Below are positions 397 to 25,887 of a stretch of DNA of 25,896 bases, piece after piece. Source of the stretch: a virus. Position numbers and translations under genes: made by a program. The stretch spans positions 1-25,896 of IMG/VR virus record IMGVR_UViG_3300017748_000118; one strand, 5' to 3'. Numbering within the stretch: position 1 is the first letter of the stretch; each line of letters starts with the position of its first letter. Under the pieces are notes generated by a model, which saw nothing but the letters and a program-made list of their open reading frames with translations, made no database searches and was not told the DNA's origin.

Positions 397-1123
397 AACA
401 ATCACAACTTTGTTTTAATATTTCTACTTCTTTTTTTAGATCTTTAATTGCTTCAATAAGAACGCCAACTAAATTTCCATAAGCAACTGATTTATATTCA
501 CCATCCTCTACAACTTCTGGTATTACTTTTTCTACTTCCTGCGCAATAACTCCCATGCCTTTTTCTGCACTTTTTGTATAAGTAACACCTCTTAAATTCA
601 TTACTTTATCTAAAGCATTTTCTATTGTTTCTACGTCTGTTTTTAATCTTTCATCTGAAAAAGCTGTAATATTACCAGAAGCAGTTATGGTTGTAGAAGC
701 AGTTATTGCACCAGTAACAGCAAGAGTAGATCCATTATAAGTTAAATTAGCTTCAGCTTCTAATGTATCAGCAGTGCCACTGCCTGTTATAATTCTATTA
801 TCAGCATTATTGTTAATAGTTGTTAAAGTAACTGTTCCAAAAGATAATGCGCCAGATCCATCTGTTTTTATAAATTGATTAGGACTGCCATCAGACGTTG
901 GATAAGTTAAACCGCCAATTGTTGCATTCGTTATTGTTGCACCTGTCATAACTGGTGATGTTAAGGTGCTTGCTCCAGTATCCATATTTTTTAACAATGC
1001 ACCTAACGCCCTAAGAGCATTATTAATATTTGATGGCGCAGTACCTTCACCTATATCAACACCATTGATATCTGTATTAGATCCTGCGGTAGCTGAAAAA
1101 CCTGCTATTGTTGAAATTGTCAT
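380..1123 (-). CDS. Tail fiber with C-terminal S74 intramolecular chaperone
   Basis: 247 residues. The first ~155 are Thr/Ala/Asn/Ser-rich beta-type repeats typical of a trimeric fiber. From residue 156 to the end the protein matches the endosialidase-type (peptidase S74) intramolecular chaperone: SDERLKTDVETIENALDKV, then GVIAQEVEKVIPEVV, then SVAYGNLVGVLIEAIKDL followed by a coiled coil. In this family the C-terminal domain guides trimer folding and cleaves itself off at the serine before the Asp in the SDERLK region; Ser156-Asp157 is the expected site. A good Shine-Dalgarno (AAGGAG, 8 bases from the ATG) fixes the start. Likely a receptor-binding or side fiber; the shaft is short and carries no recognisable enzyme domain. 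Confidence 0.88.
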   Translation of the reverse strand: MTISTIAGFSATAGSNTDINGVDIGEGTAPSNINNALRALGALLKNMDTGASTLTSPVMTGATITNATIGGLTYPTSDGSPNQFIKTDGSGALSFGTVTLTTINNNADNRIITGSGTADTLEAEANLTYNGSTLAVTGAITASTTITASGNITAFSDERLKTDVETIENALDKVMNLRGVTYTKSAEKGMGVIAQEVEKVIPEVVEDGEYKSVAYGNLVGVLIEAIKDLKKEVEILKQSCDCYDSSK

Positions 1124-1134
1124 TTATTTGCTCC

Positions 1135-1310
1135 TTAATATATTTGCAACATATTTTTATTTTTGGGTGGGTGTTGTAAAGGCGTATCAACAAATGTATC
1201 TAGCAAACCCCCATAACCTCTTTCAATTGGGTAATCTATCAATCCTCTATTAATTTGTTCAAAAGGATATTTAGTTTTTTTAAATGGACTTTCTACAGTT
1301 GTTAATCTTG
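1135..1310 (-). pseudogene. Displaced C-terminal end of the zincin-like ejection protein (apparent frameshift)
   Basis: After the stop of the 585-residue gene, a second frame stays open for about 58 codons. It starts PRLTTVESPFKKTKYPFEQ and contains GYGGLLDTFVDTPLQ, ending in a TAA at 1137-1135 that abuts the Shine-Dalgarno of the fiber gene. It has no start codon or ribosome site of its own. Reading one extra base at the CC pair (1310-1311 on the opposite strand GG) would join it directly to the upstream protein: ...ARMGND-PRLTT.... The space is otherwise a gap in an operon where genes nearly always touch, so I read it as the true C-terminus displaced by a one-base deletion or a sequencing error. 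No slippery heptamer is seen. Confidence 0.7.
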
Positions 1311-3059
1311 GTCATTCCCCATTCTTGCAGTAATTGCTCTTGCTTCAACTTCACCTAAAGAATCTTTGTAAATATCAAAAAGCAACCCTTTCGCTCCTGC
1401 TTTGTCGTAAATATCAACTTTGTTTAACAGGTCACCTGCTTTTTTATCTTTTTTTATAGCTTCGTTAAAATTTTGATATCCTACAATTTTAGGGTTTGCT
1501 TTTCTTTCTAGTTTTTTTATTTGGGATTGAATTTGCTTTCTATCTTTATAATTTGATAAAGTTTGTTCAACATTTTTTGGTCTGTATAAATCAGGAATTT
1601 TACCATATTTTTCTTCAAATTCTAAGTTGTATTTTTTAAGATTTTGATCATGGATGTATTGGAACGCTTTGTTCATCCATTTATCTCTTTCAACACTTTT
1701 TCGTTTAGGAAATTTTCCTAATTTGTTAATAATTTCGCTACCATATTCGTACCAATCAGATTGATTAAACAACAATCTTGGTTGCAGACCATAATCTCTT
1801 GTTGCAAGGTCTTTAAGTTTTGCAAGATAATCAGCTTGATATAAAGGTGTTAGTTGTTTTTTAATTTGTTTATAATCTAAATAATCATCTGTATTATTGG
1901 ACTGAATATCACTTAAAAAACTTTTGTGTTTTTTTAACGTATGTTTTATTGCATTAACACTTGTATTTGTTCCACTAGCAAATCCTTCTTTATCTTGAAT
2001 CCAGTGTTGAATTTCATGTAGTAAAGTCTTTTTAATTTCATTTTTATTAACGGCATATTTTTCATCTGTTGATGCTTTTACAATTTCTTGACCTTTTTCG
2101 TTTTTACCCATTTTATAATAAAAGTAAGGTGTATTTATAGAAATAGTTTTTCTTGAAGGGTCATACATTCCTTTATGACTAGCATTAACATCATTGTAAA
2201 AATCTACTTTTATATCTTTTGCATCTGGGTAGGCTTTATAAAGTTCATCATGTTTTAAAATATTTTTTAAAGGCTGTTGTGCAATTTTATAATTAATATC
2301 ATCAGCAAGAATAGTAGTTTCAAAAGCCATATCTTTAACTGTTTTTAAATTAAGCACAGATTTTTCATCAGGAATTTCAAACCTAATTTTTTCATCTGGG
2401 AGTTGAAATAACCCAACCCCATATTTTTCATTTGTTTTATCAAAAAATTCTTTTTGATTTGTATAACCTCGCCAATCTTTACTTTCTTCTAATAAACCTT
2501 GCACTTCTTTTTGTTTTTCCAACATATCTTTTGTTAATGAAAGTCTTAAATTATCCGATTTATCCATTAGTAGTTTTATTTCGCTAGATGGTTTTGCAAT
2601 TTGATTTAAAGGCTTATCAACGTCAGACCATATTTTATAATCATCAATAATTTGTTGCTCAGTTTTTATTAAATCATCTACTTTGTCTAAATTTTTTAAA
2701 TTAGGCGGATAAGTTTTTGCTCTACTGCCTGCGAACATCCCAATTGAATTTTTTGGCGTTCCTAACAAACCAGAACCTGTATAAGCTGTTCCGCCTGCTA
2801 AAAGTCCTAAATTATTTATTTCATCAATTGCCTGCGAACTTAGTTTGCCATCAACTGGAACAAACTTATTGCTAACTGGTCTATTTTGATTAAAAATAAA
2901 ATTTGTTAATGGAATAGTACCTTCATCAATAGTGCCACCTGCCATTTTTCCAGATTCAAGCAAACCGCCACCTAAATCTCCTAATCTAGATAACATATTA
3001 GGCAATGCTAAACTAAGGAAGCCTAAAGACGATGAATAAGGCATATTTTGTTGCGCCAT
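1302..3059 (-). CDS. Internal virion/ejection protein with zincin-like HEIQH motif
   Basis: 585 residues as read, probably about 641 if the frameshift at ~1310 is corrected. The N-terminus is hydrophobic and Gly-rich. The central part is Lys/Asp-rich helical sequence. KKTLLHEIQHWIQDKEGFASG contains a zinc metallopeptidase HExxH core (H348, E349, H352) with a Glu downstream that could be the third ligand. Near the C-terminus is GEVEARAITARM, a motif I recall from large phage polyvalent/ejection proteins. It is the last gene of the cluster of four internal proteins (1302-6692), the place where podoviruses encode DNA-ejection proteins delivered into the host. A peptidase that trims peptidoglycan or host proteins during entry is inferred, not shown. 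Confidence 0.75.
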   Translation of the reverse strand: MAQQNMPYSSSLGFLSLALPNMLSRLGDLGGGLLESGKMAGGTIDEGTIPLTNFIFNQNRPVSNKFVPVDGKLSSQAIDEINNLGLLAGGTAYTGSGLLGTPKNSIGMFAGSRAKTYPPNLKNLDKVDDLIKTEQQIIDDYKIWSDVDKPLNQIAKPSSEIKLLMDKSDNLRLSLTKDMLEKQKEVQGLLEESKDWRGYTNQKEFFDKTNEKYGVGLFQLPDEKIRFEIPDEKSVLNLKTVKDMAFETTILADDINYKIAQQPLKNILKHDELYKAYPDAKDIKVDFYNDVNASHKGMYDPSRKTISINTPYFYYKMGKNEKGQEIVKASTDEKYAVNKNEIKKTLLHEIQHWIQDKEGFASGTNTSVNAIKHTLKKHKSFLSDIQSNNTDDYLDYKQIKKQLTPLYQADYLAKLKDLATRDYGLQPRLLFNQSDWYEYGSEIINKLGKFPKRKSVERDKWMNKAFQYIHDQNLKKYNLEFEEKYGKIPDLYRPKNVEQTLSNYKDRKQIQSQIKKLERKANPKIVGYQNFNEAIKKDKKAGDLLNKVDIYDKAGAKGLLFDIYKDSLGEVEARAITARMGNDQD

Positions 3060-3067
3060 ATTAAATC

Positions 3068-4777
3068 CTAATTATTCTGTTGTTCTATTGCTGATAAAGG
3101 TAATTGAACTAAACCTTTTCTGATCATATTTCCTAATTGTGGTATTTGATTTGCAAATTTGTTAATGCCTGCCATACCGCCTTTTGTGTAAGCCAAAGAA
3201 GGTATTGCGCTTAAAAGCATTAAAGGTAAACTTCCAGTTGTTACACCAGTTCCACCAGTTAACATTCCTGCTGTTAATAATCTTTCAGCCGTACCAGAAT
3301 TAGGTACTTTTGAGCCTAGCACTCTTTTGCCTGCACCTGCTATATCACTAAATGGCATTTCAGCCATTGAAGATACTTTCTTGCCTTTAGACAGGTCTGC
3401 ACCTTGTACTGCACTTACTAATTGGTTAGGAGTAAAAAAATCATTTTGGTTTTGACTTTTTACAGTTTTTTCTAAAATCTTATACATAGAATATGATTGA
3501 TCAGTTGCTGTTAATTTAGCACCAACTTCTGGATCTACTTGTTTAATAACATTTTTAATTTCTTGTTGAACTTCTTTAAGCGTACTAGCAATTAATGCAT
3601 CATCTGGACTTGAACTTTTATTATATTTAATTATTCTTTTACCTAAATTGCTGTATGCCCTTTTTAAATTTTCGCCTGTAAGCTGTCCTGTTTCATTATA
3701 TTTTAATAAAAATTTATTTATTTCATTTTCAGCTTTATCAAATAATGGATCATCAATTTTAGCACCAATAGAATTTAACAATATTTCATCTACATTGTTT
3801 GTAAGGATTTGAGTGGCATTTGCATCTAATGTAACGCCCTCTAATACATCATCATATTGTTTAGAAATCTTGTTTGCTACAATCTTTAATGCATCACCGC
3901 CCATTTGCGTAGCATCATCTAATTTTTGCCCAATAGGTGTTAATGCATCATTAAAAGCAATTTTATTAAATGTTTCAAATTGCCTTGACCTTGCACCTCT
4001 TGGAAGGCTTCCAATTAAAGGTATACTTTCAAATGCATTCTCAAAAAATGTTCCTGCTTTACCTGTCAATTGCCCTAAAGTTAAATCCATACCCTTACCT
4101 TTAAGCAACCCTAAGTCTGATATTCTTTGTGTAATATTTCCAAAAGCACTTGGACTTAATGCGTTTATAACTTTATTACCAACTGCGCCTAAAGGTGCGC
4201 CAAAAATTGCACCGCCTAAAGCACCTTCACCCCTGTCTTGCAAATTGCCATCAGCCACTCCTGATCCATATATTGCGCCCTGAGTTGCACCAGTTACTGC
4301 ACCTCTTTGCGCTGTTCCTGCACCGCCCATTATTTTGCTAATTAATGGAGCAAGTCTTGCTGTTGTAGCTGAAGTACCTGCTAATCCGCTTGTACCGCCT
4401 GTAAATGGAGATGCTAACAAACTTCCCATAAATGGTAGCATTGCACCACCCACTTCAGTACCTAAAGATGTTTTAGGAAATTTATCCTGAAAGCCACCAA
4501 TTTGCTCTCTTTCACTTTCAAGAATTTTATTATAATCACCGCCTAACAATGCTCCTGCTCCTGCAACAAGTTCATCACCATAACCAAAAGTTAAACCTTG
4601 CCCTGCGGATCTAGCTACATTTGTAGGTGTAAGATTTCCTATTTTTTGATTTTTTTGCTGAAACTCCTCAACAGTAAAACCTTGTAATCTAATAAATTTG
4701 TCAATAGCTGATCTAGGCGCACCACCATCAATTAATTTTAAAACATCTTTCCTTGTTTCTAAAAAAGATCTAGCCAT
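3068..4777 (-). CDS. Internal virion/DNA ejection protein
   Basis: 569 residues. The N-terminal ~50 residues look like a small helical domain (LIDGGAPRSAIDKFIRLQGF). Then comes the motif ARSAGQGLTFGYGDELVAGAGALLGG and long Ala/Gly-rich hydrophobic helices (residues ~60-200), a central Asn/Lys-rich helical region, and a hydrophobic Gly-rich C-terminal part. The glycine-zipper-like amphipathic sequence is typical of podovirus internal proteins that form a membrane channel for genome ejection. The start ATG overlaps the stop of the upstream gene by one base (TAATG), so the two are translationally coupled. I do not recognise an enzymatic motif. Confidence 0.72.
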   Translation of the reverse strand: MARSFLETRKDVLKLIDGGAPRSAIDKFIRLQGFTVEEFQQKNQKIGNLTPTNVARSAGQGLTFGYGDELVAGAGALLGGDYNKILESEREQIGGFQDKFPKTSLGTEVGGAMLPFMGSLLASPFTGGTSGLAGTSATTARLAPLISKIMGGAGTAQRGAVTGATQGAIYGSGVADGNLQDRGEGALGGAIFGAPLGAVGNKVINALSPSAFGNITQRISDLGLLKGKGMDLTLGQLTGKAGTFFENAFESIPLIGSLPRGARSRQFETFNKIAFNDALTPIGQKLDDATQMGGDALKIVANKISKQYDDVLEGVTLDANATQILTNNVDEILLNSIGAKIDDPLFDKAENEINKFLLKYNETGQLTGENLKRAYSNLGKRIIKYNKSSSPDDALIASTLKEVQQEIKNVIKQVDPEVGAKLTATDQSYSMYKILEKTVKSQNQNDFFTPNQLVSAVQGADLSKGKKVSSMAEMPFSDIAGAGKRVLGSKVPNSGTAERLLTAGMLTGGTGVTTGSLPLMLLSAIPSLAYTKGGMAGINKFANQIPQLGNMIRKGLVQLPLSAIEQQNN

Positions 4778-7719: not shown

Positions 7720-9176
7720 TAACGCATTCCTAATGCATTTACTTCAAAATCTAATCCCTGTAATTCATTCCAACTGCCTGTAATATTTATTTTTGCCCTG
7801 TGATATTTTCCTCTAGATCTTATAGGTGCAAAGCCTACAGAATTAACACTGGAAGCAGTTGTAAAACTTACACTGTCTTGCGTATTATCTCTAGATGCAA
7901 CGCTTACTGTAGGTGTTCCGCCACTATGAATAGGAAATACTTTATTAACCATTGTGTGCTTACCTTTCGACAATTCCTGTTCTGCCGATATAATTTCACC
8001 TGCTAAAGTTGCACCGCCAAAAGTCTGTATCTTTTTATCTTTTACCGCGCCAAAGAAATATGAACCGCCTTTATAAACTGCGCTATCTAATGACGATGGA
8101 AGCGCATCAATACTGGATGAAATGTTATCTAACTGTTCTAATGTGTAGCCTGTAGAAAAAAGCGGTACTAATAAATCACAAGCTACTTCCAAGTAAGACC
8201 ATTTATCAACAGCATAATTATAAACCAATATTTTATCTGGCGTACTGGTTGTAGAATCATTGCTTGTAAAAGACCATAAAACTATCTGGTTTTGCGGATC
8301 TGAAGCGCAGGTTAAATCTTCTTTATAAGCCACATTAAATTGCTCATAAAACCATCTATTAACTCTTTCTGCGCCAATATTTTTAGAGCCATTACCATCA
8401 AACATATAAAAGCCATCATCTGATAAATAAAACACATTATTTCCAATGGCTGTTACAGAACCATCTACTGCACAACCTCTTTGAGTTTCAACAGCATCAA
8501 ATTGCCAGACTAATGGTGAACCAACAAAAGTACATCTAAATATTCCACGCTCACAAAGTATTGTTCCATATTCACCGCCTACAATACCCTGCACTTTTCC
8601 ATAGCCGTAAAGATCTTGAAAATCAGATAATGTTGTAGCAGATACTGCCCAAGAAGTATCATTACCTAAACCAGACCATCTAACCCTGTTTGATACATTC
8701 CCATCAACGCCATCATTCGTATTGCCTACCATGACAAAATCCCTGATAGTCGCAATGTATTTTGCTTTTGGAGCATCTGCTGATAAATCAGAATAAAGTC
8801 CAGAAGCGTTAGAAGTTATTTTTTGAATATTATCATTATAATTTGTAGCAATTACTCTTTCACCAAATTGCGTAAATCGCCATTTATTTCCTGTGCCAGT
8901 TGAATATCCACCAGATTTAGATATATCTGTTAATGAACTATCAGCAGAATTAAACTTATAAATTTTGCCACTATCTCCTGCATAAATAGCTGTATTATCA
9001 TCAAAATCTTTTGAAGCGTATGCACCTAATATTTTATTAGTTGCTACACCAGAGTAAGGTGAAAGACCATTAAAAGATCTATAACCATCAGCGGAAGGAA
9101 TGCAATTTTTTGCCTGTATAACGCCTTTGTTTGCTGTTTCTGGTTGATCTGGCAACCATTGACCAAAACTTATCAT
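7719..9176 (-). CDS. Tail nozzle/hub-like beta-propeller protein
   Basis: 485 residues from ATG 9176, which overlaps the upstream stop (ATGA); the longer reading from 9188 lacks support. The start MISFGQWLPDQPETANKGVI and following IPSADGYRSFNGLSPYSG are typical of podovirus tail tube/nozzle proteins (T7 gp12, P22 gp10 functional analogs), which begin with a short proline-rich arm and continue as a beta-propeller. Blade-like repeats are visible: AIYAGDSGKIYKFN, NKWRFTQFGERVIATNYND, NNVFYLSDDGFYMFDGNG, DKILVYNYAVDKWSYLE. The C-terminal 100 residues form another beta domain. It would form the distal end of the short tail, through which DNA leaves. Confidence 0.75.
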   Translation of the reverse strand: MISFGQWLPDQPETANKGVIQAKNCIPSADGYRSFNGLSPYSGVATNKILGAYASKDFDDNTAIYAGDSGKIYKFNSADSSLTDISKSGGYSTGTGNKWRFTQFGERVIATNYNDNIQKITSNASGLYSDLSADAPKAKYIATIRDFVMVGNTNDGVDGNVSNRVRWSGLGNDTSWAVSATTLSDFQDLYGYGKVQGIVGGEYGTILCERGIFRCTFVGSPLVWQFDAVETQRGCAVDGSVTAIGNNVFYLSDDGFYMFDGNGSKNIGAERVNRWFYEQFNVAYKEDLTCASDPQNQIVLWSFTSNDSTTSTPDKILVYNYAVDKWSYLEVACDLLVPLFSTGYTLEQLDNISSSIDALPSSLDSAVYKGGSYFFGAVKDKKIQTFGGATLAGEIISAEQELSKGKHTMVNKVFPIHSGGTPTVSVASRDNTQDSVSFTTASSVNSVGFAPIRSRGKYHRAKINITGSWNELQGLDFEVNALGMR

Positions 9177-9877
9177 TGCACACCCCAATTTTCATTATTT
9201 TGCGCCTGATTATTCCATGATGGATTAGCAGGGTTGTTATTTGTCCAACTAACTGAATTGTCAGTTGTATTTGTCCAAGTGACAGCGTTATCTGTGCTGT
9301 CTGTCCATGTAACATTTGTGTCAGTTACATCTATCCATTTTTCACCTAAAACTTCAGATACAGATGTGCAAATAGCATTGCCATTAAGTGAAGCTGAACC
9401 TAAAGTAATTATAGGTGATAAAGATGTAGCTGTTGCAGTTCCATTTGCTGTTAAAAGAACTCTAATTTCAATTTGATTAAGACTTGTACTTGCATCGCCT
9501 GTAATAGATGTACTTGCATTTAAAACTTTTAAAGCATTATTTGATGTACTTGCATCTCCAGTGACACTTCCAACACCAGTAAAGATACCAAATGCATTAT
9601 TTGTTGTACTTGCATCACCTGTAATAGATGCAGTCGCATTTCTTATTCTAACAAAACCATCAGCAATAGTTGCGCTTGCGCTTACAGATGCACCGCCAAA
9701 TAAAACCCTGATTGCTTCACAGCTTGTACTTGCATCGCCTGATATTGATGCACTTGTAATTAATACCTTTAAAGCATTATTAGTAACACTGGCATCACCT
9801 GATAAACTTGCACTAGCCGTTATTTGAACAAAGCCAGTTGCAATTGGCTTTTCACCTAAACTAAATACAGAAAGCAT
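9173..9877 (-). CDS. Repetitive beta-rich virion protein
   Basis: 234 residues made of internal repeats. The N-terminal ~160 residues contain about seven imperfect copies of a ~24-residue unit with core (A/S)SITGDASTSNNALKVL, a pattern typical of beta-solenoid fibers or receptor-interacting virion proteins. Residues ~185-215 hold a second, shorter repeat (VTWTDSTDNAVTWTNTTDNS), a Trp/Thr/Asn-rich ~10-mer that resembles beta-strand stacks of fiber tips. It is coupled to the nozzle gene by ATGA. The product could be an adaptor or fiber on the tail; I do not recognise a named family. The repeats at DNA level make copy-number change by recombination plausible. Confidence 0.65.
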   Translation of the reverse strand: MLSVFSLGEKPIATGFVQITASASLSGDASVTNNALKVLITSASISGDASTSCEAIRVLFGGASVSASATIADGFVRIRNATASITGDASTTNNAFGIFTGVGSVTGDASTSNNALKVLNASTSITGDASTSLNQIEIRVLLTANGTATATSLSPIITLGSASLNGNAICTSVSEVLGEKWIDVTDTNVTWTDSTDNAVTWTNTTDNSVSWTNNNPANPSWNNQAQNNENWGVQ

Positions 9878-19050: not shown

Positions 19051-19309
19051 TAAAATCCTCAATGTCTTTAATGTTTACTGATCTTAACATTTCCATCGCT
19101 TCTTCTGGCTCTATGTTTGCTTTTTGTGATGCATTAACAAATGCAATGATTAAACTGTTTGCAATCTCTTCCCAGTTAGCGAATTCGGACACATGAAGTC
19201 CATTCAAATACATAATTACTGCGCTCGCTGATTGCTCTATCTTTTCCTGATCTACTACCTGCACTTCTATATTCATGTGTTTTTTAGGAAATTCTATTAT
19301 TTTACTCAT
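19043..19309 (-). CDS. Small conserved protein preceding portal, function unknown
   Basis: 88 residues. It begins MSKIIEFPKKHMNIEVQVVD, followed by a helical domain (SASAVIMYLNGLHVSEFANW, IANSLIIAFVNASQKANIEP, EEAMEMLRSVNIKDIED). It overlaps the portal start by 8 bases. The ATG at 19309 has no convincing Shine-Dalgarno (the upstream sequence is AT-only). It is the first leftward gene after the opposite-strand cassette, so it may be transcribed from a promoter near 19310-19400 or by read-through from terL. No function recognised. Confidence 0.68.
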   Translation of the reverse strand: MSKIIEFPKKHMNIEVQVVDQEKIEQSASAVIMYLNGLHVSEFANWEEIANSLIIAFVNASQKANIEPEEAMEMLRSVNIKDIEDFNG

Positions 19310-19347
19310 ATTTATGCGTTTTTATTTGTTTTTATTTGTTTTTACTC

Positions 19348-19390
19348 TTGTTTTATGTGTATTTAAATATTATATTAACTATAAGTTAAT
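19348..19390 (+). promoter_or_regulatory. Rightward promoter with operator copy 1
   Basis: TTGTTT (19348-19353), a 17-base spacer and TATATT (19371-19376) form a plausible sigma-70 promoter with a weak -35. Overlapping the -10 and the likely start site is the inverted repeat ATTAACT-ATA-AGTTAAT (19374-19390), with perfect 7-base arms. The repeat recurs at 22601, 25815 and 25871. The gene's AGAGAGGG Shine-Dalgarno follows directly. Likely a repressor-controlled promoter for the two rightward genes. Confidence 0.6.
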
Positions 19391-19406
19391 TAATAGAGAG
19401 GGTATT

Positions 19407-20081
19407 ATGACTGCTTTAGAAACAAACCAAGAATTTCCATTTTTTGTAGATGTAGGTAATCAAGGTAAATTGTATACTTTGCGTGCTGTATGTCCATCAT
19501 CCAGATACTGGTCTGATAGATCTACATTTTCTACTCATGTTGTGTCATTATCTAGTAATTATGACACTGCTATTAAAAAAGCTAAACAATATGCTAATGA
19601 TCATAATGTAGCACTTGAAGTTCCAGAAACTCTTCCAAAAACTTTAATAAAAATTACTCAGCGTTCATCAGAAGAAGTCGCTAAAGAAAAAGCTATTATT
19701 GCGCACCAAAACTTTATGTTGACCGAACTTGCTTCACTTAGAAGAATTAGAAGCAATGTAAAAAATGGCTTTTATAATATCAATAAATTAAAAACAAAAT
19801 ATACATCTAGCCATGTAGGTCAAATTGATGATCGTATCGACTTTGACTGCACTTTAGAATTTACTCACAGCTTTGTATCGTATTATGGTGTTAGCTTTCT
19901 TAACAGCATGAAAGATGCCAACGGCAATGTCATCACCTACTTTGGTAGCCGTTCATTAGGCGAGAAAGGTGACAAAATTACTTTTAGTGCTAAAATCAAA
20001 AAGCATGATGAATACAAAGGCATTAAACAAACTATTATCCAAAGACCAACTAAAATCAAAAACCATACAAGGGAGTGGTAA
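19407..20081 (+). CDS. Opposite-strand accessory gene with OB-like C-terminal module
   Basis: 224 residues from ATG 19407, chosen for AGAGAGGG just upstream; an earlier in-frame start at 19275 would run through the promoter and operator. The N-terminal part (FPFFVDVGNQGKLYTLRAVC) and middle (helical, Lys-rich) are not recognised. The C-terminal ~50 residues have the pattern G-N-V-I-T-Y-F-G-S...GDKITFSAKIKKHDEYKGIK-QTIIQRPTKIK, which I recall as a recurrent module of phage proteins of unknown function and which looks like a small beta-barrel (OB-type). Nucleic-acid binding is a guess. The gene lies antisense between terL and portal, with its own promoter and operator, the layout of a moron or lysogeny gene. 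Confidence 0.78.
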   Translation: MTALETNQEFPFFVDVGNQGKLYTLRAVCPSSRYWSDRSTFSTHVVSLSSNYDTAIKKAKQYANDHNVALEVPETLPKTLIKITQRSSEEVAKEKAIIAHQNFMLTELASLRRIRSNVKNGFYNINKLKTKYTSSHVGQIDDRIDFDCTLEFTHSFVSYYGVSFLNSMKDANGNVITYFGSRSLGEKGDKITFSAKIKKHDEYKGIKQTIIQRPTKIKNHTREW

Positions 20082-20082
20082 A

Positions 20083-20415
20083 ATGAGATTAACAAAAAAC
20101 GAAAAAACAATAATTAGTGTTTGCAGAAGTTTAACAATATCAGCGCATGGCGTTGACATTGACGAAAGTTTAGGCGGTTGGTTTTTCCAAGATATCTGGG
20201 ATGCCTGCACAAACCAATTTAGTGAAGAACAACTCAAAGGCGTAATTGGTAGCTTAGTAAAGAAAAAAATTCTTGAAATAGACTACCCAGATGAACATAG
20301 AGTTTCAGCAGGTTCTGCCACAACCGAATATTACTTTAACAATCTATGTGAATGGTATGATGAAACTTGCAAGAAGATAGATGAAGAATATAAAAAACAA
20401 CTATCTACAGCTTAA
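20083..20415 (+). CDS. Second gene of rightward cassette, winged-helix-like small protein
   Basis: 110 residues from ATG 20083; GGGAG overlaps the last codons of the upstream gene, and only one base separates stop and start, so the two are co-translated. MRLTKNEKTIISVCRSLTIS is followed by FFQDIWDACTNQFSEEQLKG and VIGSLVKKKILEIDYPDEHR, whose helix-helix-wing-like order resembles a winged helix. The C-terminal segment is helical (WYDETCKKIDEEYKKQ). It ends convergently with terL; the stop codons overlap by 4 bases. Function unknown; a regulatory or host-interaction role is possible. Confidence 0.75.
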   Translation: MRLTKNEKTIISVCRSLTISAHGVDIDESLGGWFFQDIWDACTNQFSEEQLKGVIGSLVKKKILEIDYPDEHRVSAGSATTEYYFNNLCEWYDETCKKIDEEYKKQLSTA

Positions 20416-21806
20416 ACAACCCAATTAAGGTCTGGGCGGATACTATTCCGCCTATTCCAACTTCCTAACTTCCCACTTCCAAAAGCACCATGCATAGCAA
20501 AAGTAAGCAGAAAAGCATCCGCGCAATCTGGTGACCTTAAACCGCGCTTTTTTAATTGATCTTTACCTTCGACTTTCAATTTGCCACTAGACAAATATTG
20601 ATACTTCACAGCCGTTAATTCTTTAATCAAAGTTGCATCATCTGGCATTTTGCAATCTTTAGCTTCAAAAAACTCCCTAGCCTTCCACCAGAGTTCATCT
20701 CTTAACCTGCTAAACTTCTGCCCAAGTGCAGGACTTTCAGCAACATTAATTCCTACCGCAGGCAGATCCAGTTCTATTAGTCTATCAACTAATCCTGCAC
20801 CTAAACCAATACTATCAATAAAAATTTGCGATGGCTTCTCAGGATATGGCGTTGCTTCATACTCACTTAATACAATGCCTGCCGTAGACATTAAATCCTT
20901 TCCCTGCCATGTTTTTACCTTTTCCAGTAAATAACCGCCCTGACGCTTCGCCAAAGCCGTTCTATCATCTCCATACCTTGCAGGATCAACGCCCCAAACA
21001 ACAGGCGCATATTCGTCACGCTCAACTTCTCTTTTAACTGCACTTTCAACCAAATCCAATCCAATAAGTGTATCATCGTCAGATGTACTAAATTCACCCA
21101 ATACGCGAATACGAAATACATTTGACTCTTCACCATACTTTTTTGCCATGTCCTGAATAAATTCATCACTGACATAATCTCCATCTCTTGATGAAACTGT
21201 TTGCAAATGCCAACTATCACGCATTGTGTGAAAGCATTCGTAAAAGAAGCCACTAGAGCGTGTAGGATTGCCTGCAAGCACTATCTTCGCGTTAGGAGTA
21301 GACAAACTCCCAGAAGCTGTCTCAAAAATAATATCTGGAATTCCTGAACTTTCATCGCAAACTGCTAACATATTCTGCGAGTGAAATCCTGCTAACGCTT
21401 CTGGATTTTCTCTACGGCTAACCCTGTAAGATAAAAAACTATCTGGACTGCCTTTTAAAGCCACCCTGTCCTGTTTAAACTCTAACTGATCTAGAAAGCC
21501 TTTAGGTAGCTGTTTAGACCATTTCTGTACATCGTTAGCCAATACATCGTGAAGCTGTGATGCGGTGTTTGCAGTGGCTACAATCTTTGCAGGAATGCGT
21601 GTTAATAAAAACCATAAACACAGCCAAGAAAGATATGTAGATTTGCCTACACCATGTCCAGACTTGATCGCAACCTTATTGCTTTTAACAACAGCGGTTA
21701 ATGCTTCTATTTGCCATTTCTGGGGTTCTGCTTTTAATACAGTGCGCACAAATAATACTGGATCATTGTGCAGTTTTTTTAGAATTTTTTTAAAATCATC
21801 TGACAT
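20412..21806 (-). CDS. terL: Terminase large subunit
   Basis: 464 residues. The ATPase domain shows Walker A SGHGVGKST (49-57), a following Q/N-rich motif (NTASQLHDVL) and Walker B MLAVCDE (146-152); the coupling motif LAGNPT (178-183) is present. The nuclease domain has the three acidic positions of the RNase-H-like fold: D274 in WGVDPARYGDD, D331 in IFIDSIGLGAG and D430 in SPDCADAF. The enzyme pumps DNA into the procapsid through the portal and cuts the concatemer. The start (ATG 21806) lacks a clear Shine-Dalgarno; the long untranslated leader with C tracts is unusual. Confidence is high because all catalytic motifs are in place. Confidence 0.95.
   Translation of the reverse strand: MSDDFKKILKKLHNDPVLFVRTVLKAEPQKWQIEALTAVVKSNKVAIKSGHGVGKSTYLSWLCLWFLLTRIPAKIVATANTASQLHDVLANDVQKWSKQLPKGFLDQLEFKQDRVALKGSPDSFLSYRVSRRENPEALAGFHSQNMLAVCDESSGIPDIIFETASGSLSTPNAKIVLAGNPTRSSGFFYECFHTMRDSWHLQTVSSRDGDYVSDEFIQDMAKKYGEESNVFRIRVLGEFSTSDDDTLIGLDLVESAVKREVERDEYAPVVWGVDPARYGDDRTALAKRQGGYLLEKVKTWQGKDLMSTAGIVLSEYEATPYPEKPSQIFIDSIGLGAGLVDRLIELDLPAVGINVAESPALGQKFSRLRDELWWKAREFFEAKDCKMPDDATLIKELTAVKYQYLSSGKLKVEGKDQLKKRGLRSPDCADAFLLTFAMHGAFGSGKLGSWNRRNSIRPDLNWVV
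20434..20452. other. Hairpin in the overlapping 3' ends of terL and rightward cassette
   Basis: GGCGGA (20435-20440), a 6-base loop and TCCGCC (20447-20452) form an inverted repeat just past the rightward cassette stop and within the terL C-terminus. There is no T tract on either strand, so an intrinsic terminator is doubtful. The 9-mer GGGCGGATA at its start also opens the post-capsid terminator (13698-13706). It may attenuate converging transcription. Confidence 0.35.
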
Positions 21807-21835
21807 AGTATGAGGATGGTAATTTTTTTTCCACT

Positions 21836-21864
21836 GGGGGGGCGTGTGTCCGAAAGGGGGGGGG
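21836..21864. repeat. G7 and G9 homopolymer tracts in terS-terL gap
   Basis: In this AT-rich genome the 166-base terS-terL gap contains G7 (21836-21842) and G9 (21856-21864) separated by 13 bases on the plus strand, so the late mRNA leader of terL would hold C9 and C7 runs. Such runs are slippage-prone. They are close to the terminase genes, where packaging signals can lie, but nothing else supports a pac or cos site. Confidence 0.6.
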
Positions 21865-21926
21865 TAAAATTCAGCTATAATAAACTAAATCCCCTATATT
21901 ACGCCATCAATTTATAACAATATCAA

Positions 21927-21983
21927 TTACTTAGGCTTATTAGTTCTGGTCTTTTTCTTTTTCTTCTTATTGCTAGTGTACAT
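21927..21983 (-). CDS. Possible 18-residue Lys-rich peptide or frame-extension of terS
   Basis: An ATG at 21983, in the other frame over the last codons of terS, opens an 18-residue peptide MYTSNKKKKKKTRTNKPK. AGGCAAGA lies upstream. The run of AAG/AAA codons may reflect a real basic C-terminal tail, for example if terS once read through in this frame, since basic C-termini are common in small terminases. It could also be chance in a purine-rich stretch. Evidence is weak. Confidence 0.25.
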   Translation of the reverse strand: MYTSNKKKKKKTRTNKPK

Positions 21984-22437
21984 TCTTGCCTGCTTTCTGT
22001 TCATGCGCGCGTAGTGCGCCCACTTGTGATTTTTCTGCTTCCTGCTCTATTACTTCTTGGACTTCCCTCAACGCATCTACATAACTTGTTTCATGTTTGA
22101 CCTCCATGCGCTGTATATCTCCATACACTTTAGGTGCAAGCTTACTGCTCACCCATTTCAATCCATCAATAGCAACTCTTCCTGCATTAGCATCAAGCGT
22201 TCCATTAACAACCTGATCTATTATCTCACTGATCTTATCAGCATAGACCTGCCCTCTACTTTCCATCGCTAAAGAATAAGCACCTGCAAACTGGGTATTC
22301 TGATTCAACTCTCTTGATACCTGTGACCAACTGCACATATCTTTATCTTTACAAACAGATCTTGCGCTTCTTCCTTCACCTATTCTTTTGAGGAACTCAT
22401 TCTGCATTGCCTGCTGAAATGTTTTTGCTCTTGCCAT
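21973..22437 (-). CDS. terS: Terminase small subunit
   Basis: 154 residues from ATG 22437. Helical N-terminal domain with the family pattern: EFLKRIGEGRSARSVCKDKD, then MCSWSQVSRELNQNTQFAGA, an HTH that recognises the packaging site, YADKISEIIDQVVNG, then RVAIDGLKWVSSKLAPKVYGD, the classical small-terminase signature (DxxKWxxSKLxPKxYGD). It binds the phage genome and hands it to TerL. The start is 11 bases after the T tract of a strong terminator and has no good Shine-Dalgarno (only a weak GGA); an upstream TTG (22443) is less likely. First gene of the late operon. Confidence 0.9.
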   Translation of the reverse strand: MARAKTFQQAMQNEFLKRIGEGRSARSVCKDKDMCSWSQVSRELNQNTQFAGAYSLAMESRGQVYADKISEIIDQVVNGTLDANAGRVAIDGLKWVSSKLAPKVYGDIQRMEVKHETSYVDALREVQEVIEQEAEKSQVGALRAHEQKAGKNVH

Positions 22438-22448
22438 AATCAATCCAT

Positions 22449-22484
22449 AAAAAAAGGAGCAGAGAAAAGTTATAACTCTGCCCC
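22449..22484 (-). terminator. Intrinsic terminator immediately upstream of terS
   Basis: On the minus strand GGGGCAGAG (22484-22476) pairs with CUCUGCUCC (22464-22456) in a 9-bp stem (one G-U) around an 11-base loop, followed at once by U7 (22455-22449). This is a textbook intrinsic terminator placed between the early leftward genes and terS. All late genes lie beyond it, so it must be overridden or bypassed for late expression. Confidence 0.88.
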
Positions 22485-22525
22485 TAAAGTTTATCTTCTA
22501 GGAGGAATAAATATAAAAAATGCCT

Positions 22526-22531
22526 ATTATA
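22526..22531 (-). promoter_or_regulatory. Possible late-promoter -10 upstream of terminator
   Basis: A perfect TATAAT on the minus strand (22531-22526) lies in the gap between the early genes and terS. No good -35 is found 16-18 bases upstream (TATATC there). A transcript would begin near 22519 and reach the terminator after about 70 bases, like lambda's late promoter-terminator leader. Weak evidence on its own. Confidence 0.35.
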
Positions 22532-22593
22532 CTTATCTTAATAATTTAGATATACTACTGCGCGGACTTAGACAAGTAAAAAAAACTTCTATA

Positions 22594-22622
22594 TTGACAT
22601 ATTAACCTATAGTTAATATATA
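22594..22622 (+). promoter_or_regulatory. Strong rightward promoter with operator copy 2 in the spacer
   Basis: TTGACA (22594-22599), a 17-base spacer and TATATA (22617-22622) form a near-consensus sigma-70 promoter. The spacer is almost exactly filled by the inverted repeat ATTAACC-TAT-AGTTAAT (22601-22617), one mismatch from perfect arms. A protein bound there would block RNA polymerase directly. Gene start is at 22655 with AGAGGT upstream. This is the clearest promoter/operator in the window. Confidence 0.82.
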
Positions 22623-22654
22623 TTATTAGTATTTAAATGTTATTAGAGGTTATT

Positions 22655-22849
22655 ATGCTGACAAAAGAAACATCGAAGAAGTTATTATTAAAGCACATAT
22701 CAAAAGCAACTCCTGATCCATTAGACAGATCCATAGGCAGGATATATCATCGCACTGTATTCCAACGCATGAAATGGTGGGAAAGTCTTTTACTGCATTT
22801 CTTTACAAGCTGTATGATATTACTTTGCATCTACCTTCTGCTTGCGTAA
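22655..22849 (+). CDS. Small membrane protein, rightward, operator-controlled
   Basis: 64 residues from ATG 22655, chosen because AGAGGT lies 4 bases upstream; the ATG is preceded by the same leader layout (AGAGG-n-TATTATG) as the 19407 gene. The N-terminal 40 residues are basic (MLTKETSKKLLLKHISKATP, GRIYHRTVFQRMK); the last 24 (WWESLLLHFFTSCMILLCIY and LLLA) form one transmembrane helix, N-in by the positive-inside rule. It overlaps the end of the leftward DUF6456-like gene by 30 bases tail to tail. No family recognised. Position and regulation suggest a lysogeny or host-altering gene, for example superinfection exclusion. Confidence 0.7.
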   Translation: MLTKETSKKLLLKHISKATPDPLDRSIGRIYHRTVFQRMKWWESLLLHFFTSCMILLCIYLLLA

Positions 22850-23341
22850 CTCAGCTACTCTATTAAAAGCATTCTCTAATGCATCTAGGCAAAAGCGTAG
22901 TATATCAATAGCACTGCGCTTTGACCTGCCTACATTCTCTGCCCATTCAGTTGCCATCATATTGTAACAACAAACATTCTCAACAACTTTAAATATTTCT
23001 TTACCCATTTCTCTAGACAATATCTGTAAATCCCTTCTCGCGATTGCAGATCTGTCAGTGCCATTATCATCATGCCCAGAAGGCAGTAAGTCCCATTTCA
23101 TTGTTATGTTCTTCTCCAAGCCTGCTATGCGCCATAAAGTATAAAGCCTAAGACCAACTGCATATTGCTCTTTAGTAATGATACTATTCCTGATGTAATA
23201 ATCCAGAGCAGTACCATCAACAACTATTCTCTTTCTCTTTCCGCCCTTCCCAGTTCTTTCTTCAATAGTGTTATGTTGTGTCCGCTCATAAGTAGGAAGT
23301 ACATCTATGTCAGCCTGTTCCTGCTTCTTCTTCTTAGGCAT
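22820..23341 (-). CDS. DUF6456-like protein, candidate late-gene regulator (Q-like position)
   Basis: 173 residues from ATG 23341 (AGAGGA about 8 bases upstream; the ATG at 23347 is too near it and the longer frame runs into the upstream gene). A Lys-rich N-terminus (MPKKKKQEQ) precedes VDGTALDYYIRNSIITKEQY and a helical core; the C-terminal part EIFKVVENVCCYNMMATEW then VGRSKRSAIDILRFCLDALE resembles alphaproteobacterial DUF6456 domains (V-x-CF...W..RSAKxxLxxALxxL). The last segment looks like a helix-turn-helix. It is the last early gene before the late terminator, the slot of lambda Q or ArpU-type regulators. The antitermination role is inferred from position, not sequence. Confidence 0.62.
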   Translation of the reverse strand: MPKKKKQEQADIDVLPTYERTQHNTIEERTGKGGKRKRIVVDGTALDYYIRNSIITKEQYAVGLRLYTLWRIAGLEKNITMKWDLLPSGHDDNGTDRSAIARRDLQILSREMGKEIFKVVENVCCYNMMATEWAENVGRSKRSAIDILRFCLDALENAFNRVAELRKQKVDAK

Positions 23342-24161
23342 TGTCATATTCCTCTTGAATAATCTTCCCTTCTGCCAACAAACTACGCAATGCAAAATCA
23401 TGGTTGCGTTTTAATCTTCCTCTAAACCATTCATCTGATTCATTCCATTGCTTTAAAATAAAATCATCATCCTGCTTTATAGAAAATGGTATTACCTGTT
23501 CAGCTTGTGGTGGTTCATATGTCCAACCTTCTTGATTAAGCCATGTCAGTACATTCTTAGCGTATCCATCCTTTACAGTCTGGTCTTGCTTATACAATCG
23601 CAAACCCTTCATCAAATCATCAAAAGATACACCGCCTTTTAAAACCTTTTTAAACTTTTCATAAATCTTTGTACCGCCAATCCATGTGCTTCTATTATTA
23701 GATCTTGGATATTCTAATTTAAATTCCTGAAACTCCTTTTCATATTCTTTTTCTTTTTTATATATTTTTTCTTTATATATATAACTTAGGTTATTATTAC
23801 TTATTATGCGACCGCTCTCGCGAACAATGGGAGTATCGGATGTTCGTGTTTGCGGACAATGGGGCTTTTCTGCCAGTTTTGTATCATATACAGTATATTC
23901 AGAACCGCGCTTTAATCCTTTAACAATGTTAGCCTTTCTGGTTACATAACCTGCATCAATCAGCTTCTTTAATATTGTATAAACCTTAGTCTTACCCCAT
24001 CCAAAACGCTTGCCCAGAAACTCAGCCTGTATCTTCCAATTACTAGGCTTGCCAATCAAATAAGTTAACATACCTAAACACTCACAGCTTAGATCTTTAT
24101 CTTCCATAATAGCGTTAGGAATAACAGTGTAATCAGTCGTATGTTTGGAGCGTTTAATCAT
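23334..24161 (-). CDS. O-like replication initiation protein with winged-helix N-terminus
   Basis: 275 residues. The N-terminal ~95 residues are a winged-helix DNA-binding domain of the phage replication/HTH type: HTTDYTVIPNAIMEDKDLSC, CLGMLTYLIGKPSNWKIQAE, LGKRFGWGKTKVYTILKKLI, GYVTRKANIVKGLKRGSEYT. A linker (PHCPQTRTSDTPIVRESGR) is encoded by the iteron-like DNA. The C-terminal half (FKLEYPRSNNRSTWIGGTKI, LRLYKQDQTVKDGYAKNVLT, WLNQEG) resembles the helicase-loader-binding part of phage replication proteins. ATGA overlap with the methyltransferase gene. Likely binds the origin within its own gene and recruits host helicase, as lambda O does. Confidence 0.75.
   Translation of the reverse strand: MIKRSKHTTDYTVIPNAIMEDKDLSCECLGMLTYLIGKPSNWKIQAEFLGKRFGWGKTKVYTILKKLIDAGYVTRKANIVKGLKRGSEYTVYDTKLAEKPHCPQTRTSDTPIVRESGRIISNNNLSYIYKEKIYKKEKEYEKEFQEFKLEYPRSNNRSTWIGGTKIYEKFKKVLKGGVSFDDLMKGLRLYKQDQTVKDGYAKNVLTWLNQEGWTYEPPQAEQVIPFSIKQDDDFILKQWNESDEWFRGRLKRNHDFALRSLLAEGKIIQEEYDNA
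23751..23864. other. Candidate replication origin: AT-rich tract plus iteron-like repeats
   Basis: Within the O-like gene, GCGAACAATGGGA (23820-23832) and GCGGACAATGGGG (23852-23864) are direct repeats 32 bases apart (about three helical turns), with a further inverted TGTTCG/CGGACA pair between them (23841-23856). They border a ~57-base almost pure A/T tract (23751-23807) that could melt easily. Iterons plus an AT-rich element inside the initiator gene is the layout of lambda ori. Only two clear iterons are seen, so this is moderate evidence. Confidence 0.5.
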
Positions 24162-24682
24162 ATCCAGTTAACCTTACTGGTGTAGCTAACATTGTATAAG
24201 TTCCACACAAACCATGCGTAGGCAGTTGTGCCAGTACCTTTTATATCCTGATCACCGCGCCAGATTGTCAATCTTCTGGAAAAGACATAAACATTTGTTG
24301 GCGGATGTTTTACAAATATATTTTCTTTTCTCCAAATACCTTCCAGAAAAGCAAGCCTTAATAAAAACGCAAACTTTCTGGGTTTTAATTCTATTGCTTT
24401 TAAAACAAAATCATTTGCCAATTTAAAAGGTGGGTTTGTAATAATATCGCAATTAGTAAAAGGTAACTCTTTAAATTTTAAAAAATCCTGATTGCTTTCA
24501 CCATAATCATAATCAAATAAATCAGTGTTATATGTTTTATAATTATGTTTCTCTAATACTTTGCTGATTGATCCATCACCACTTGCACACTCCCAAACAA
24601 TAGGCGCAAACATTTCACGCGCTAACAATGCCTGAGTAGCTATTTCTGGTGTTGGGTAATAATCCTGCTTATGCCTGCTCAT
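24158..24682 (-). CDS. Adenine-type DNA methyltransferase (NPPF)
   Basis: 174 residues from ATG 24682, supported by AGAGG upstream; a longer reading to 24721 lacks a ribosome site. YYPTPEIATQALLAREMFAP is the usual start of small phage methyltransferases. VWECASGDGSISKVLEKHNY forms the SAM-binding motif I (CASGDG) and TNCDIITNPPFKLANDFVL contains the catalytic NPPF (83-86) of N6-adenine methylases. LLRLAFLEGIWRKENIF and PPTNVYVFSRRLTIW follow as in relatives. No target recognition domain is large enough to predict the site. Likely protects phage DNA from host restriction or regulates it. Confidence 0.82.
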   Translation of the reverse strand: MSRHKQDYYPTPEIATQALLAREMFAPIVWECASGDGSISKVLEKHNYKTYNTDLFDYDYGESNQDFLKFKELPFTNCDIITNPPFKLANDFVLKAIELKPRKFAFLLRLAFLEGIWRKENIFVKHPPTNVYVFSRRLTIWRGDQDIKGTGTTAYAWFVWNLYNVSYTSKVNWI

Positions 24683-24833
24683 TATCTGCCCTCTCACCGC
24701 TACAGCATTCACTGACCACAACCTTGCAGGTTATGCACTGATAATGTCCATGAACATTAACCACAGTTAAAGCGGTCTTACAAAGCGGACAAAATTCTAA
24801 TTTTTTAACTGTTTCTGTTTCAGAATTTTCCAT
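24669..24833 (-). CDS. Small zinc-ribbon protein (54 aa)
   Basis: 54 residues in a frame that overlaps the end of the nuclease gene by 37 bases and the start of the methyltransferase gene by 14. MENSETETVKKLEFCPLCKT then ALTVVNVHGHYQCITCKVVV contains a zinc ribbon: C15-x2-C18 and C33-x2-C36, with a further CC pair near the end. Without it there would be a 75-base hole in an operon where genes otherwise touch. GAAG lies a few bases before the ATG. Zinc ribbons of this size are common among phage early genes and may bind nucleic acid or a host protein. Function unknown. Confidence 0.75.
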   Translation of the reverse strand: MENSETETVKKLEFCPLCKTALTVVNVHGHYQCITCKVVVSECCSGERADNEQA

Positions 24834-25291
24834 AAATCTTCAATGTTATTTAAAAACTTTTCTTCTAAACCCCATGTTTTTCCATGACCTAAATCGACTT
24901 CTTTAGATTTAAATTTAAAATCAACGCGACTACACCATCCAACAACCTCAATTTGCTTGCCTTTCTGCCTGCAAAAAACAGCAACATCAGATCTAAATTT
25001 ATCTAAATTCCTAAACAAAAGCATTCTGGCATTCTCAAATCCTGTCTTTACATCTATTGAGCAATCACCAAAAAACATATCAACACCATCATCATGCCCA
25101 ATAGCGTTGGCAGTCCAATCTAGATCAAACATCTTAGCGACAGCCATTTCTCCGCGCACTCCAAGCAAATCCAGATCAGATCTGTTAACAACCTTCTGAT
25201 TATTTAAGCCTGCATATCTGGCAAAAGAAGTTCTGGCATTGCCTGCTTGCGCACAAAGACTTTCTTCTGATCTGGATAAATTAACAATCAC
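24797..25291 (-). CDS. PD-(D/E)XK-type nuclease-like protein
   Basis: 164 residues. LLGVRGEMAVAKMF (Glu48 helix), DDGVDMFFGDCSIDVKTGFE (D71 ... D80-V-K82) and a following beta-alpha pattern (MLLFRNLDKFRSDVAVFCRQ, IEVVGWCSRVDF) give the order of the PD-(D/E)XK fold: helix Glu, Asp, then D-x-K. The ATG overlaps the upstream stop (ATGA). Proteins like this in phage early regions are usually annotated as hypothetical or restriction-like nucleases; possible roles are host DNA breakdown or recombination. Catalysis is inferred from the residues only. Confidence 0.7.
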   Translation of the reverse strand: MIVNLSRSEESLCAQAGNARTSFARYAGLNNQKVVNRSDLDLLGVRGEMAVAKMFDLDWTANAIGHDDGVDMFFGDCSIDVKTGFENARMLLFRNLDKFRSDVAVFCRQKGKQIEVVGWCSRVDFKFKSKEVDLGHGKTWGLEEKFLNNIEDLWKILKQKQLKN

Positions 25292-25602
25292 TTTTGATTT
25301 GCTAGTAGTTCAAAAAAATCATCTAAATCAATCAGGATAAGTTCGGACTGCCTGTCAGCTTTAATAACAAGCGCATCGTTATCACCTTTCCACTTGTAAA
25401 GATTTTTAAAACCATCCGCCCTGCATTTTACTTCCATAACCCATTCATCAGCACCTTTTTTAGATGAAACAATTACGTCACCTTTAATGCTACCACCGCC
25501 ACTAAGCGGAATGCGTATTGCGTGTAATCCATGAATATCAGCTTTCTTTCTGATATTATTCTCAGTGCGGTAGCCTTTATCTCTACTGAACTTTCCCATC
25601 AT
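25288..25602 (-). CDS. Holliday-junction-resolvase-like PD-(D/E)XK nuclease
   Basis: 104 residues. The order matches archaeal Hjc-type resolvases: SRDKGYRTENNIRKKADIHG (E14 in the first helix), AIRIPLSGGGSIKGDVIV (G41-D42), and EWVMEVKCRADGF (E57-V-K59). The length fits this small family. In phage genomes such proteins replace RuvC or RusA and resolve branched DNA before packaging. It overlaps the upstream Cro-like gene by 20 bases; ATG 25602 or 25599 could serve as the start. Two nucleases of the same superfamily are adjacent here, with different sequence motifs. Confidence 0.72.
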   Translation of the reverse strand: MMGKFSRDKGYRTENNIRKKADIHGLHAIRIPLSGGGSIKGDVIVSSKKGADEWVMEVKCRADGFKNLYKWKGDNDALVIKADRQSELILIDLDDFFELLANQK

Positions 25603-25795
25603 ACCAATCCACTGCTTGCACTTTGTGATTTGTAAGCCTTTGAATAATTGCTATCTTGTCACCTCTGGGATAACCTAAACCGCTATACCATTTCCAGAAT
25701 GCAACATCAGAAACTACTATTCCTTTTTCAGCCAACATCTCTTTAAAAAAGTCTTTTGTGATCTGTTCTTCTTCTAAATATTCTTTTAATTTCAT
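25583..25795 (-). CDS. Cro-like helix-turn-helix repressor
   Basis: 70 residues. KDFFKEMLAEKGIVVSDVAF followed by WKWYSGLGYPRGDKIAIIQR and LTNHKVQAVDWYDG is the Cro/YdaS-type pattern (HTH with AVxKW...G..Pr...i..i...TnghVtp.D). ATG 25795 has AGAGGT 5 bases upstream. Two operator-like inverted repeats lie just upstream (25815-25831 and 25871-25887), with a -35 pair for divergent promoters between them, so self-regulation is likely. It is the first gene of the leftward early operon, the place of lambda cro. It is the best candidate in this window for the protein that binds the ATTAACT-N3-AGTTAAT sites; a repressor just outside would be the other. Confidence 0.75.
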   Translation of the reverse strand: MKLKEYLEEEQITKDFFKEMLAEKGIVVSDVAFWKWYSGLGYPRGDKIAIIQRLTNHKVQAVDWYDGKVQ

Positions 25796-25814
25796 CGCTA
25801 ACCTCTAATTACGC

Positions 25815-25831
25815 ATAAACTAGAAGTTAAT
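25815..25831. promoter_or_regulatory. Operator copy 4 upstream of the cro-like gene
   Basis: ATAAACT-AGA-AGTTAAT, one arm mismatch to the ATTAACT-N3-AGTTAAT repeat seen at three other places. It lies between the leftward -35 (TTGACA) and the gene, covering the expected -10 (TAGTTT, 25822-25817). Confidence 0.65.
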
Positions 25832-25838
25832 AAATGTG

Positions 25839-25867
25839 TTGTCAAACAATTTTGAATAATATATGCT
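25839..25867. promoter_or_regulatory. Divergent promoter pair at the cro-like gene
   Basis: The leftward -35 TTGACA (25845-25840) overlaps a rightward -35 TTGTCA (25839-25844). Leftward, 17 bases lead to a weak TAGTTT; rightward, 17 bases lead to TATGCT (25862-25867). Each start region is overlapped or followed by an operator copy. The layout resembles a lambdoid immunity region with a rightward repressor gene beyond the window edge. Confidence 0.5.
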
Positions 25868-25870
25868 TCT

Positions 25871-25887
25871 ATTAACTTATAGTTAAA
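25871..25887. promoter_or_regulatory. Operator copy 3 near the right edge
   Basis: ATTAACT-TAT-AGTTAAA, one arm mismatch. Read on the minus strand the core (TTAACTATAAGTTAA) equals the 15-base core of copy 1 at 19375-19389 exactly. It lies just downstream of the rightward -10 (TATGCT), where it would cover the transcript start. Confidence 0.7.

Follow-up and report, generated by a model that had tools for sequence, protein, structure and literature searches.

A recurring 17-bp palindrome as the predicted operator of a dispersed CI/Cro-type regulon in a temperate phage

Introduction

How does a phage hold genes that lie far apart under one control? The question is raised by a viral DNA of 25,896 bases (IMG/VR record IMGVR_UViG_3300017748_000118, positions 1 to 25,896; this whole stretch is called the window below), in which a 17-bp inverted repeat, ATTAACT-N3-AGTTAAT (N, any base), recurs at separate places. 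An earlier note on this DNA had listed four copies, each at a promoter and none in coding sequence, and had read them as sites of one repressor/Cro switch acting on the early operon and on accessory genes placed elsewhere, which were thought to be lysogeny-linked. From the sequence comparisons reported here, we consider it likely that the repeats are the operators of a CI/Cro-type switch of a marine temperate phage, and that the accessory units are early-lytic and not lysogeny genes.

Results

The motif, a 17-bp palindrome with the core TTAACY-N3-RGTTAA (Y, C or T; R, A or G), is present in the window as one perfect copy and three copies with one mismatch, at the four positions given by the earlier note. 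The perfect copy, O1 (ATTAACTATAAGTTAAT), lies at 19374-19390 on the plus strand; O2 (ATTAACCTATAGTTAAT; 22601-22617, plus strand), O3 (25815-25831, minus strand) and O4 (25871-25887, plus strand) carry one mismatch each. In 1000 dinucleotide shuffles, the number of copies at one mismatch or fewer averaged 0.019 and never exceeded 1, as compared to the four observed, so the repeats are real; after them, the best matches in the window carry three mismatches, which is the chance level. When no motif was assumed beforehand, 1 of 200 shuffles of the window contained any perfect 7-N3-7 palindrome present at least four times with at most one mismatch.

The window ends abruptly beside cro, and four proved to be an undercount for the whole phage. 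Contig L005, which overlaps the last 2,024 bases of the window at 99.65%, carries a perfect copy, O5 (L005:3692-3708), adjoining a gene that may be holin-like, and a weak, probable site with two mismatches, O6 (L005:1508-1524); a scan of the linked contig of 17,297 bases gave these two matches and no others. For the remainder of the phage on L005 (1-9468), one copy at one mismatch or fewer was observed and 0.016 were expected. The phage is thereby predicted to carry at least five operators, plus one weak site. No copy with at most one mismatch falls inside a predicted gene, either in the window or in the linked contig. O1 does fall in the mechanically called open reading frame (ORF) 19275-20081, and was counted as non-coding because the likely start of this gene is the ATG at 19407, which is preceded by GAGGG as ribosome site and matches in position the start of the homologue in the related contig L014. 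Once the gene starts there, the claim that coding sequence is free of copies holds.

The sites are kept in relatives. O2, O3, O4 and O5 were found at orthologous places in L102 (78% identical to this phage in CI and 64% in Cro) and in L103 and L104 (CI 61%, Cro 58%), wherever these contigs reach. O3 is kept in L005-L007 as well as in L102-L104, and O4 is perfect in the latter three. The closer relatives L014 and L099 retain O1 and O2: O1 is kept in L014 (large terminase TerL 97% identical), and O2 is kept in L099, L102 and L104 with its flanks TTGACAT and TATAT unchanged. Across O2-O5, the core columns TTAAC...GTTAA are invariant at 39 of 40 places, as compared to 258 of 440 in the flanks (p = 7e-8) and 5 of 12 in the 3-base spacer. 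In L102, O5 reads ATTAACC-N3-GGTTAAT, a symmetric change that preserves the palindrome. Fixed arms beside a varying spacer and flanks are the behaviour of a protein-binding site, and the arms, whose comparison between relatives the earlier note proposed, are conserved.

Similar sites were also seen in unrelated viral contigs. L094, L095, L096 and L097, which have isolate-style record numbers, carry the arms TTAACT-N3-AGTTAA twice within 76 bp; in L094 the repeats sit in a repressor/cro-like intergenic region, and in L096 another copy is found some 250 bases away. The 8.6-kb contig L179 has sites of the ATTAACT-N3-AGTTAAT type at 1825, 4906 and 5360 (two perfect, one with two mismatches), which are apparently intergenic and possibly mark another dispersed regulon.

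Each operator overlaps or abuts a predicted sigma-70-like promoter. At O1 the predicted elements are a -35 box TTGTTT (19348-19353) and a -10 box TATATT (19371-19376), which puts the operator centre at about -1. O2 lies within the N17 spacer between TTGACA (22594-22599) and TATATA (22617-22622; centre about -20), and O3 overlaps the predicted cro -10 box TAGTTT (25817-25822; -35 box TTGACA, 25840-25845; centre about -13). O4 is directly 3' of the predicted promoter of the leader and CI genes (TTGTCA, 25839-25844; TATGCT, 25862-25867; centre about +6), O5 is centred at -23, and O6 overlaps the -35 box of TTTACT-N17-TATAAT with its centre near -39. These centres were computed from the best promoter matches, which are weak one by one (p 0.04-0.21) and reach p = 0.005 against shuffled flanks when the six sites are combined. 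Relatives largely retain the promoter elements at O2, O3 and O4. The palindromes O3 and O4 overlap both predicted divergent promoters of the CI/Cro region, their spacing of 56 bp is the same in six of six relatives compared, and the cro and leader-CI -35 boxes overlap on opposite strands (25839-25845). Positions from -23 to +6, as seen for O1-O5, are a repression geometry, in which a bound protein should block RNA polymerase.

The repressor itself was found on the overlapping contig. CI (L005:8412-9059, minus strand) is a 215-aa protein with matches to HTH_3 (5e-8), a helix-turn-helix (HTH) family, and to Peptidase_S24 (3e-9), and its model has a fold like lambda CI and LexA (E 4e-5). In an alignment of four clade members the S24 catalytic Ser is replaced by Asp (SGDDM, not G-x-S-M), the Lys by Arg, and the cleavage-site position reads SGG, not Ala-Gly. 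Without these two catalytic residues CI probably does not cleave itself, and induction probably does not proceed by RecA-stimulated self-cleavage. Most of the distant relatives also have no catalytic Ser, and a few retain a GDSM-like motif. CI, with its N-terminal HTH and C-terminal S24-like domain, is encoded divergently from a small Cro-like HTH protein of 70 aa (25583-25795, minus strand), whose match to phrog_35 is weak (E 0.025) and whose profile matches P22 C2, Cro and YdaS sequences (E 0.002-0.1). An AlphaFold2 model of this protein (pLDDT confidence score 89) resembles YdaS and the N-terminal domains of TP901-1 CI and P22 C2 (TM structural similarity score 0.57-0.66), with no significant Foldseek E-value.

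Assembly of the contigs gives the layout of the phage. Beyond the overlap, L005 carries a leader ORF, CI, YqaJ and ERF recombination genes, an excisionase-like HTH gene and a tyrosine integrase gene, and contig 3300017779_000315 links this region to window bases 1-3538 at 99.97%; by arithmetic from the overlaps, the phage is about 40 kb in size. Its gene content (a CI-type repressor, the integrase and the excisionase-like HTH) points to a temperate phage. A TerL search of GTDB gave relatives at 31-35% only and no host assignment. One main unit runs through cro, replication, packaging, structure and lysis, and the divergent unit through the leader, CI, recombination, xis and int. The lytic unit is broken up by gene islands on the opposite strand, and a separate operator was found for every island examined: O1 is placed between TerL and an 88-aa gene, O2 between the small terminase TerS and a DUF6456 gene, and O5 beside the possibly holin-like gene, and O6 is probably the operator of a further island. 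The single repressor/Cro regulon proposed earlier, over the cro operon and separate accessory units, is thus well supported by the sequence, with sites at orthologous places in relatives and the repressor's own operon covered as well; binding to the operators is predicted.

The genes behind these operators vary between relatives. The O1 unit consists of acc224 (19407-20081, plus strand; 224 aa), which carries a C-terminal domain of unknown function shared by many phages (PHROG 3628 and 2319; E 1e-29), and of a 110-aa gene (20083-20415, plus strand). acc224 matches 340 phage records, mostly via this C-terminal domain, including large records of 170-260 kb, and its gene is inserted between TerL and the 88-aa gene. 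In L014, O1 and acc224 (74% identical) are present and the 110-aa gene is absent; in L015 (TerL 79%) neither O1 nor its genes are found. With its own predicted promoter, transcription from the opposite strand and absence from a close relative, the O1 unit has the structural features of a moron, and because L015 is without both operator and genes, cassette and operator appear to travel together. The O2 unit, present in every close relative whose contig covers the locus, encodes acc64 (22655-22849, plus strand), a basic protein of 64 aa with one C-terminal membrane-like segment, 88% identical in L102 and 67% in L104.

At O5, L005 and L007 hardly differ in promoter, operator and ribosome site, and from around the start codon onward their coding sequences are unrelated. 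L102 and L178 have two further first genes at this place with shared distal genes, such that a constant promoter-operator precedes four different first genes in four lineages. The products of the O5 locus include very acidic small proteins (net charge -23 in 108 aa and -13 in 73 aa). This hypervariable accessory operon extends over L005:2106-3650, L007:1-763, L102:9188-11134 and L178:7669-11074, the very acidic 108-aa protein being among the distal genes. Family searches of the accessory proteins found no function.

Upstream of CI, a further element came into view. A same-strand ORF with [ASG]-P-P precedes CI in 25 of 31 non-redundant family members (L102, L103, L105, L111, L113, L115, L116, L121, L122 and others), where shuffles predict 0.8 and the reverse strand gives 0. 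The usual form is W-x5-A-P-P: the Trp is at -8 in 19 of 24 aligned leaders, in which the codons used for Ala and Pro differ. In E. coli, APP has been reported as a tripeptide that stalls ribosomes (PMC4176338). In a clade with the sequence WDNPPIAPP, only a few codons separate the motif from the end of the ORF, and a hairpin begins at roughly the last Pro codon and reaches to the CI ribosome site. RNAalifold on a MAFFT alignment of the leaders did not detect this hairpin, the arms of which vary and misalign; it was assessed instead by cross-pairing the arms, which covary (-13.8 kcal/mol for cognate and -7.9 for non-cognate pairs, with no other of 720 permutations as good). This hairpin suggests an arrest-peptide attenuator of CI in that clade. 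When a ribosome was modelled as parked at APP, exposure of the CI ribosome site rose from 0.36 to 0.52 (mean of 24 leaders, p = 0.008), as compared to 0.34 for a control position.

Conservation of APP merely as a strand pairing with the ribosome site was rejected as the main cause: CCG, which weakens the pairing, is the commonest first Pro codon, the Trp at -8 is kept, and APP is retained in leaders without a hairpin. In the phage studied here, the leader ORF (L005:9017-9457, minus strand; 146-150 aa) has APP and runs 43 bases into the CI gene; a hairpin hiding the ribosome site was not found in it, and the product of this leader could instead be a protein in its own right, such as an antirepressor like Coi. 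In Synechococcus phage MinM1, an ORF of 51 aa ends in SWQGIFPP* and overlaps the start of the S24 repressor.

Discussion

These results suggest how a single switch could govern the phage. In a lysogen, CI dimers would occupy O1, O2, O3 and O5 and silence the cro/replication/late operon together with the accessory units, and O4 would serve CI autoregulation and also Cro action. Since their -35 boxes overlap, the cro and leader-CI promoters would compete directly for RNA polymerase. Upon loss of CI, or in an infection before CI has accumulated, all units would fire as an early wave, which Cro, acting on the same sites, would later damp. As the operators lie on core promoters, where repression and not activation is expected, the accessory genes should be silent in the lysogen and switched on at an early lytic stage. 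The lysogeny link drawn for them in the earlier note is on this ground probably wrong in direction. The accessory units would be early-lytic genes brought under phage control, which probably serve to take over the host or to counter its defences; early functions against the host are plausible for them, and the acidic O5 products are, by our reading, similar to proteins found among early anti-host genes. For a lysogen-expressed gene, the leader, which is transcribed before CI, is a better candidate than the accessory genes.

Several points weigh against this scheme. The +1 positions depend on the weak promoter matches, and O6, the site with two mismatches, sits where activation is conceivable. 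The CI repressor was not found in 84,980 GTDB species genomes, so that lysogeny is judged from gene content. In more distant family members (CI about 30%; C72C1, L024, L033, L035, L041, L066, L081, L085 and others) no recurring palindrome of their own was found, which would make the dispersed regulon lineage-specific. O6, with its activator-like position, would also suit a reading in which the operators are the same and the accessory genes are expressed from the prophage, and either turned off by Cro during lytic growth or activated by CI. Morons are often expressed from the prophage, and opposite-strand units with their own promoters inside a late operon resemble them. Nevertheless, O1-O5 are on core promoters, the C-terminal domain of acc224 is also found in the large phages, and the O5 products are of a kind that we associate with early genes; we therefore regard lysogeny-linked accessory genes as unlikely.

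It is a good deal less probable still that a host regulator, for instance of the XRE family or a stress regulator, binds the sites in place of CI and Cro. No host is assigned, and the recurrence of the arms in the unrelated phages L094-L097 means that they are not unique to this protein pair; yet in L094 the repeats occupy the repressor/cro-like intergenic region of that phage itself, where self-recognition classically takes place, and here two sites flank the divergent CI/Cro promoters at a fixed distance in all relatives compared. To a chance palindrome, or a terminator-like or replication-related repeat of no regulatory meaning, we give hardly any credence: the genome is AT-rich (36% GC) and the motif mostly A/T, but the excess over expectation, the conserved arms amid variable spacer and flanks, and the promoter-side position of all sites speak against it. 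Operators of a CI/Cro-type switch remain our preferred interpretation.

By analogy, the regulon resembles the dispersed operators of P1 combined with a CI/Cro switch. P1 C1 uses single 17-bp operators dispersed over the genome to repress scattered lytic and accessory genes, and its c1 operon carries an upstream gene, coi (PMC8546580). The likeness lies in one repressor with single dispersed 17-bp operators, here the predicted O1, O2, O3/O4 and O5 over about 40 kb, and in a gene upstream of the repressor in its own operon. The 22 operator sites of P1 are, in contrast, asymmetric, and C1 works together with Lxc and Coi, whereas the present phage has five to six symmetric palindromes, a CI-type HTH_3/S24 repressor and an integrating lifestyle. 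With the lambdoid switches (lambda, P22, 434) it shares divergent repressor/cro promoters, intergenic palindromic operators of about 17 bp and a CI-type fold; the lambda operators are in clustered triplets, whereas here there is one per promoter with extras at accessory units, the S24 catalytic Ser/Lys are missing, and CI is followed, in its own direction, by the recombination genes, xis and int. Repressor sites are also numerous across the genome of the cluster A mycobacteriophage L5 (PMC6550527); there the stoperators, asymmetric and for the most part not at promoters, block elongation, unlike the sites here, all at predicted promoters. The C repressor of Rhizobium phage 16-3, with annotated operators at PR and PL, is matched at 28% by a member (L146) of the CI family, but its operators are of 12-14 bp and annotated around the c locus, and it has no leader ORF, c starting right after the Pc -10 box.

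The CI leaders are reminiscent of RAPP/SecM-type attenuators in their short upstream ORF, their proline-containing motif near the end and, in one clade, the hairpin hiding the ribosome-binding site; they differ in carrying W-x5-A-P-P without Arg and in that the controlled gene is a phage repressor, stalling being predicted. In two surveys of RAPP-type arrest peptides the words 'phage' and 'repressor' are absent from the main text, and no description of a leader-peptide control of a phage repressor of such kind was found in the open-access papers searched. CI may then be under double control, from its operator and from a leader peptide that arrests the ribosome and so exposes the hidden CI ribosome site, lysogeny being gated by host translation (for example EF-P, elongation factor P, or amino-acid supply) and not by DNA damage. 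Gating by translation would fit a repressor mostly without S24 catalytic residues; we advance it tentatively, with the balance tipped slightly against it.

If the regulon is as proposed, accessory genes of temperate phages can join the immunity circuit by arriving with an operator copy or by landing behind one, of which the O5 locus would be a direct example, and operator copies outside the immunity region become a rule for finding early accessory or counter-defence genes. The leader is a more surprising by-product than the regulon and, if true, adds a further way of controlling a phage repressor.

Additional observations

Three other features were seen in these contigs. Between the TerS and TerL genes (window 21835-21870) there are two long G runs about 13 bases apart, in a genome of low GC content, and a similar pair is present in L014. 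Direct repeats (59 bp, 86% alike, and 38 bp) lie at 9483-9781, inside the gene at 9173-9877, whose product is a repetitive protein. Between the holin-like gene and the integrase gene, sequences like tRNA 3' ends are found at L005:4150-4294 (ATGGCGGAGGGAGGGG) and L007:1261-1396 (ATGGCGGGCGCTCTGCCCT); they differ between the two integrase lineages (64% identical) and are probably attP sites for two different tRNA genes.

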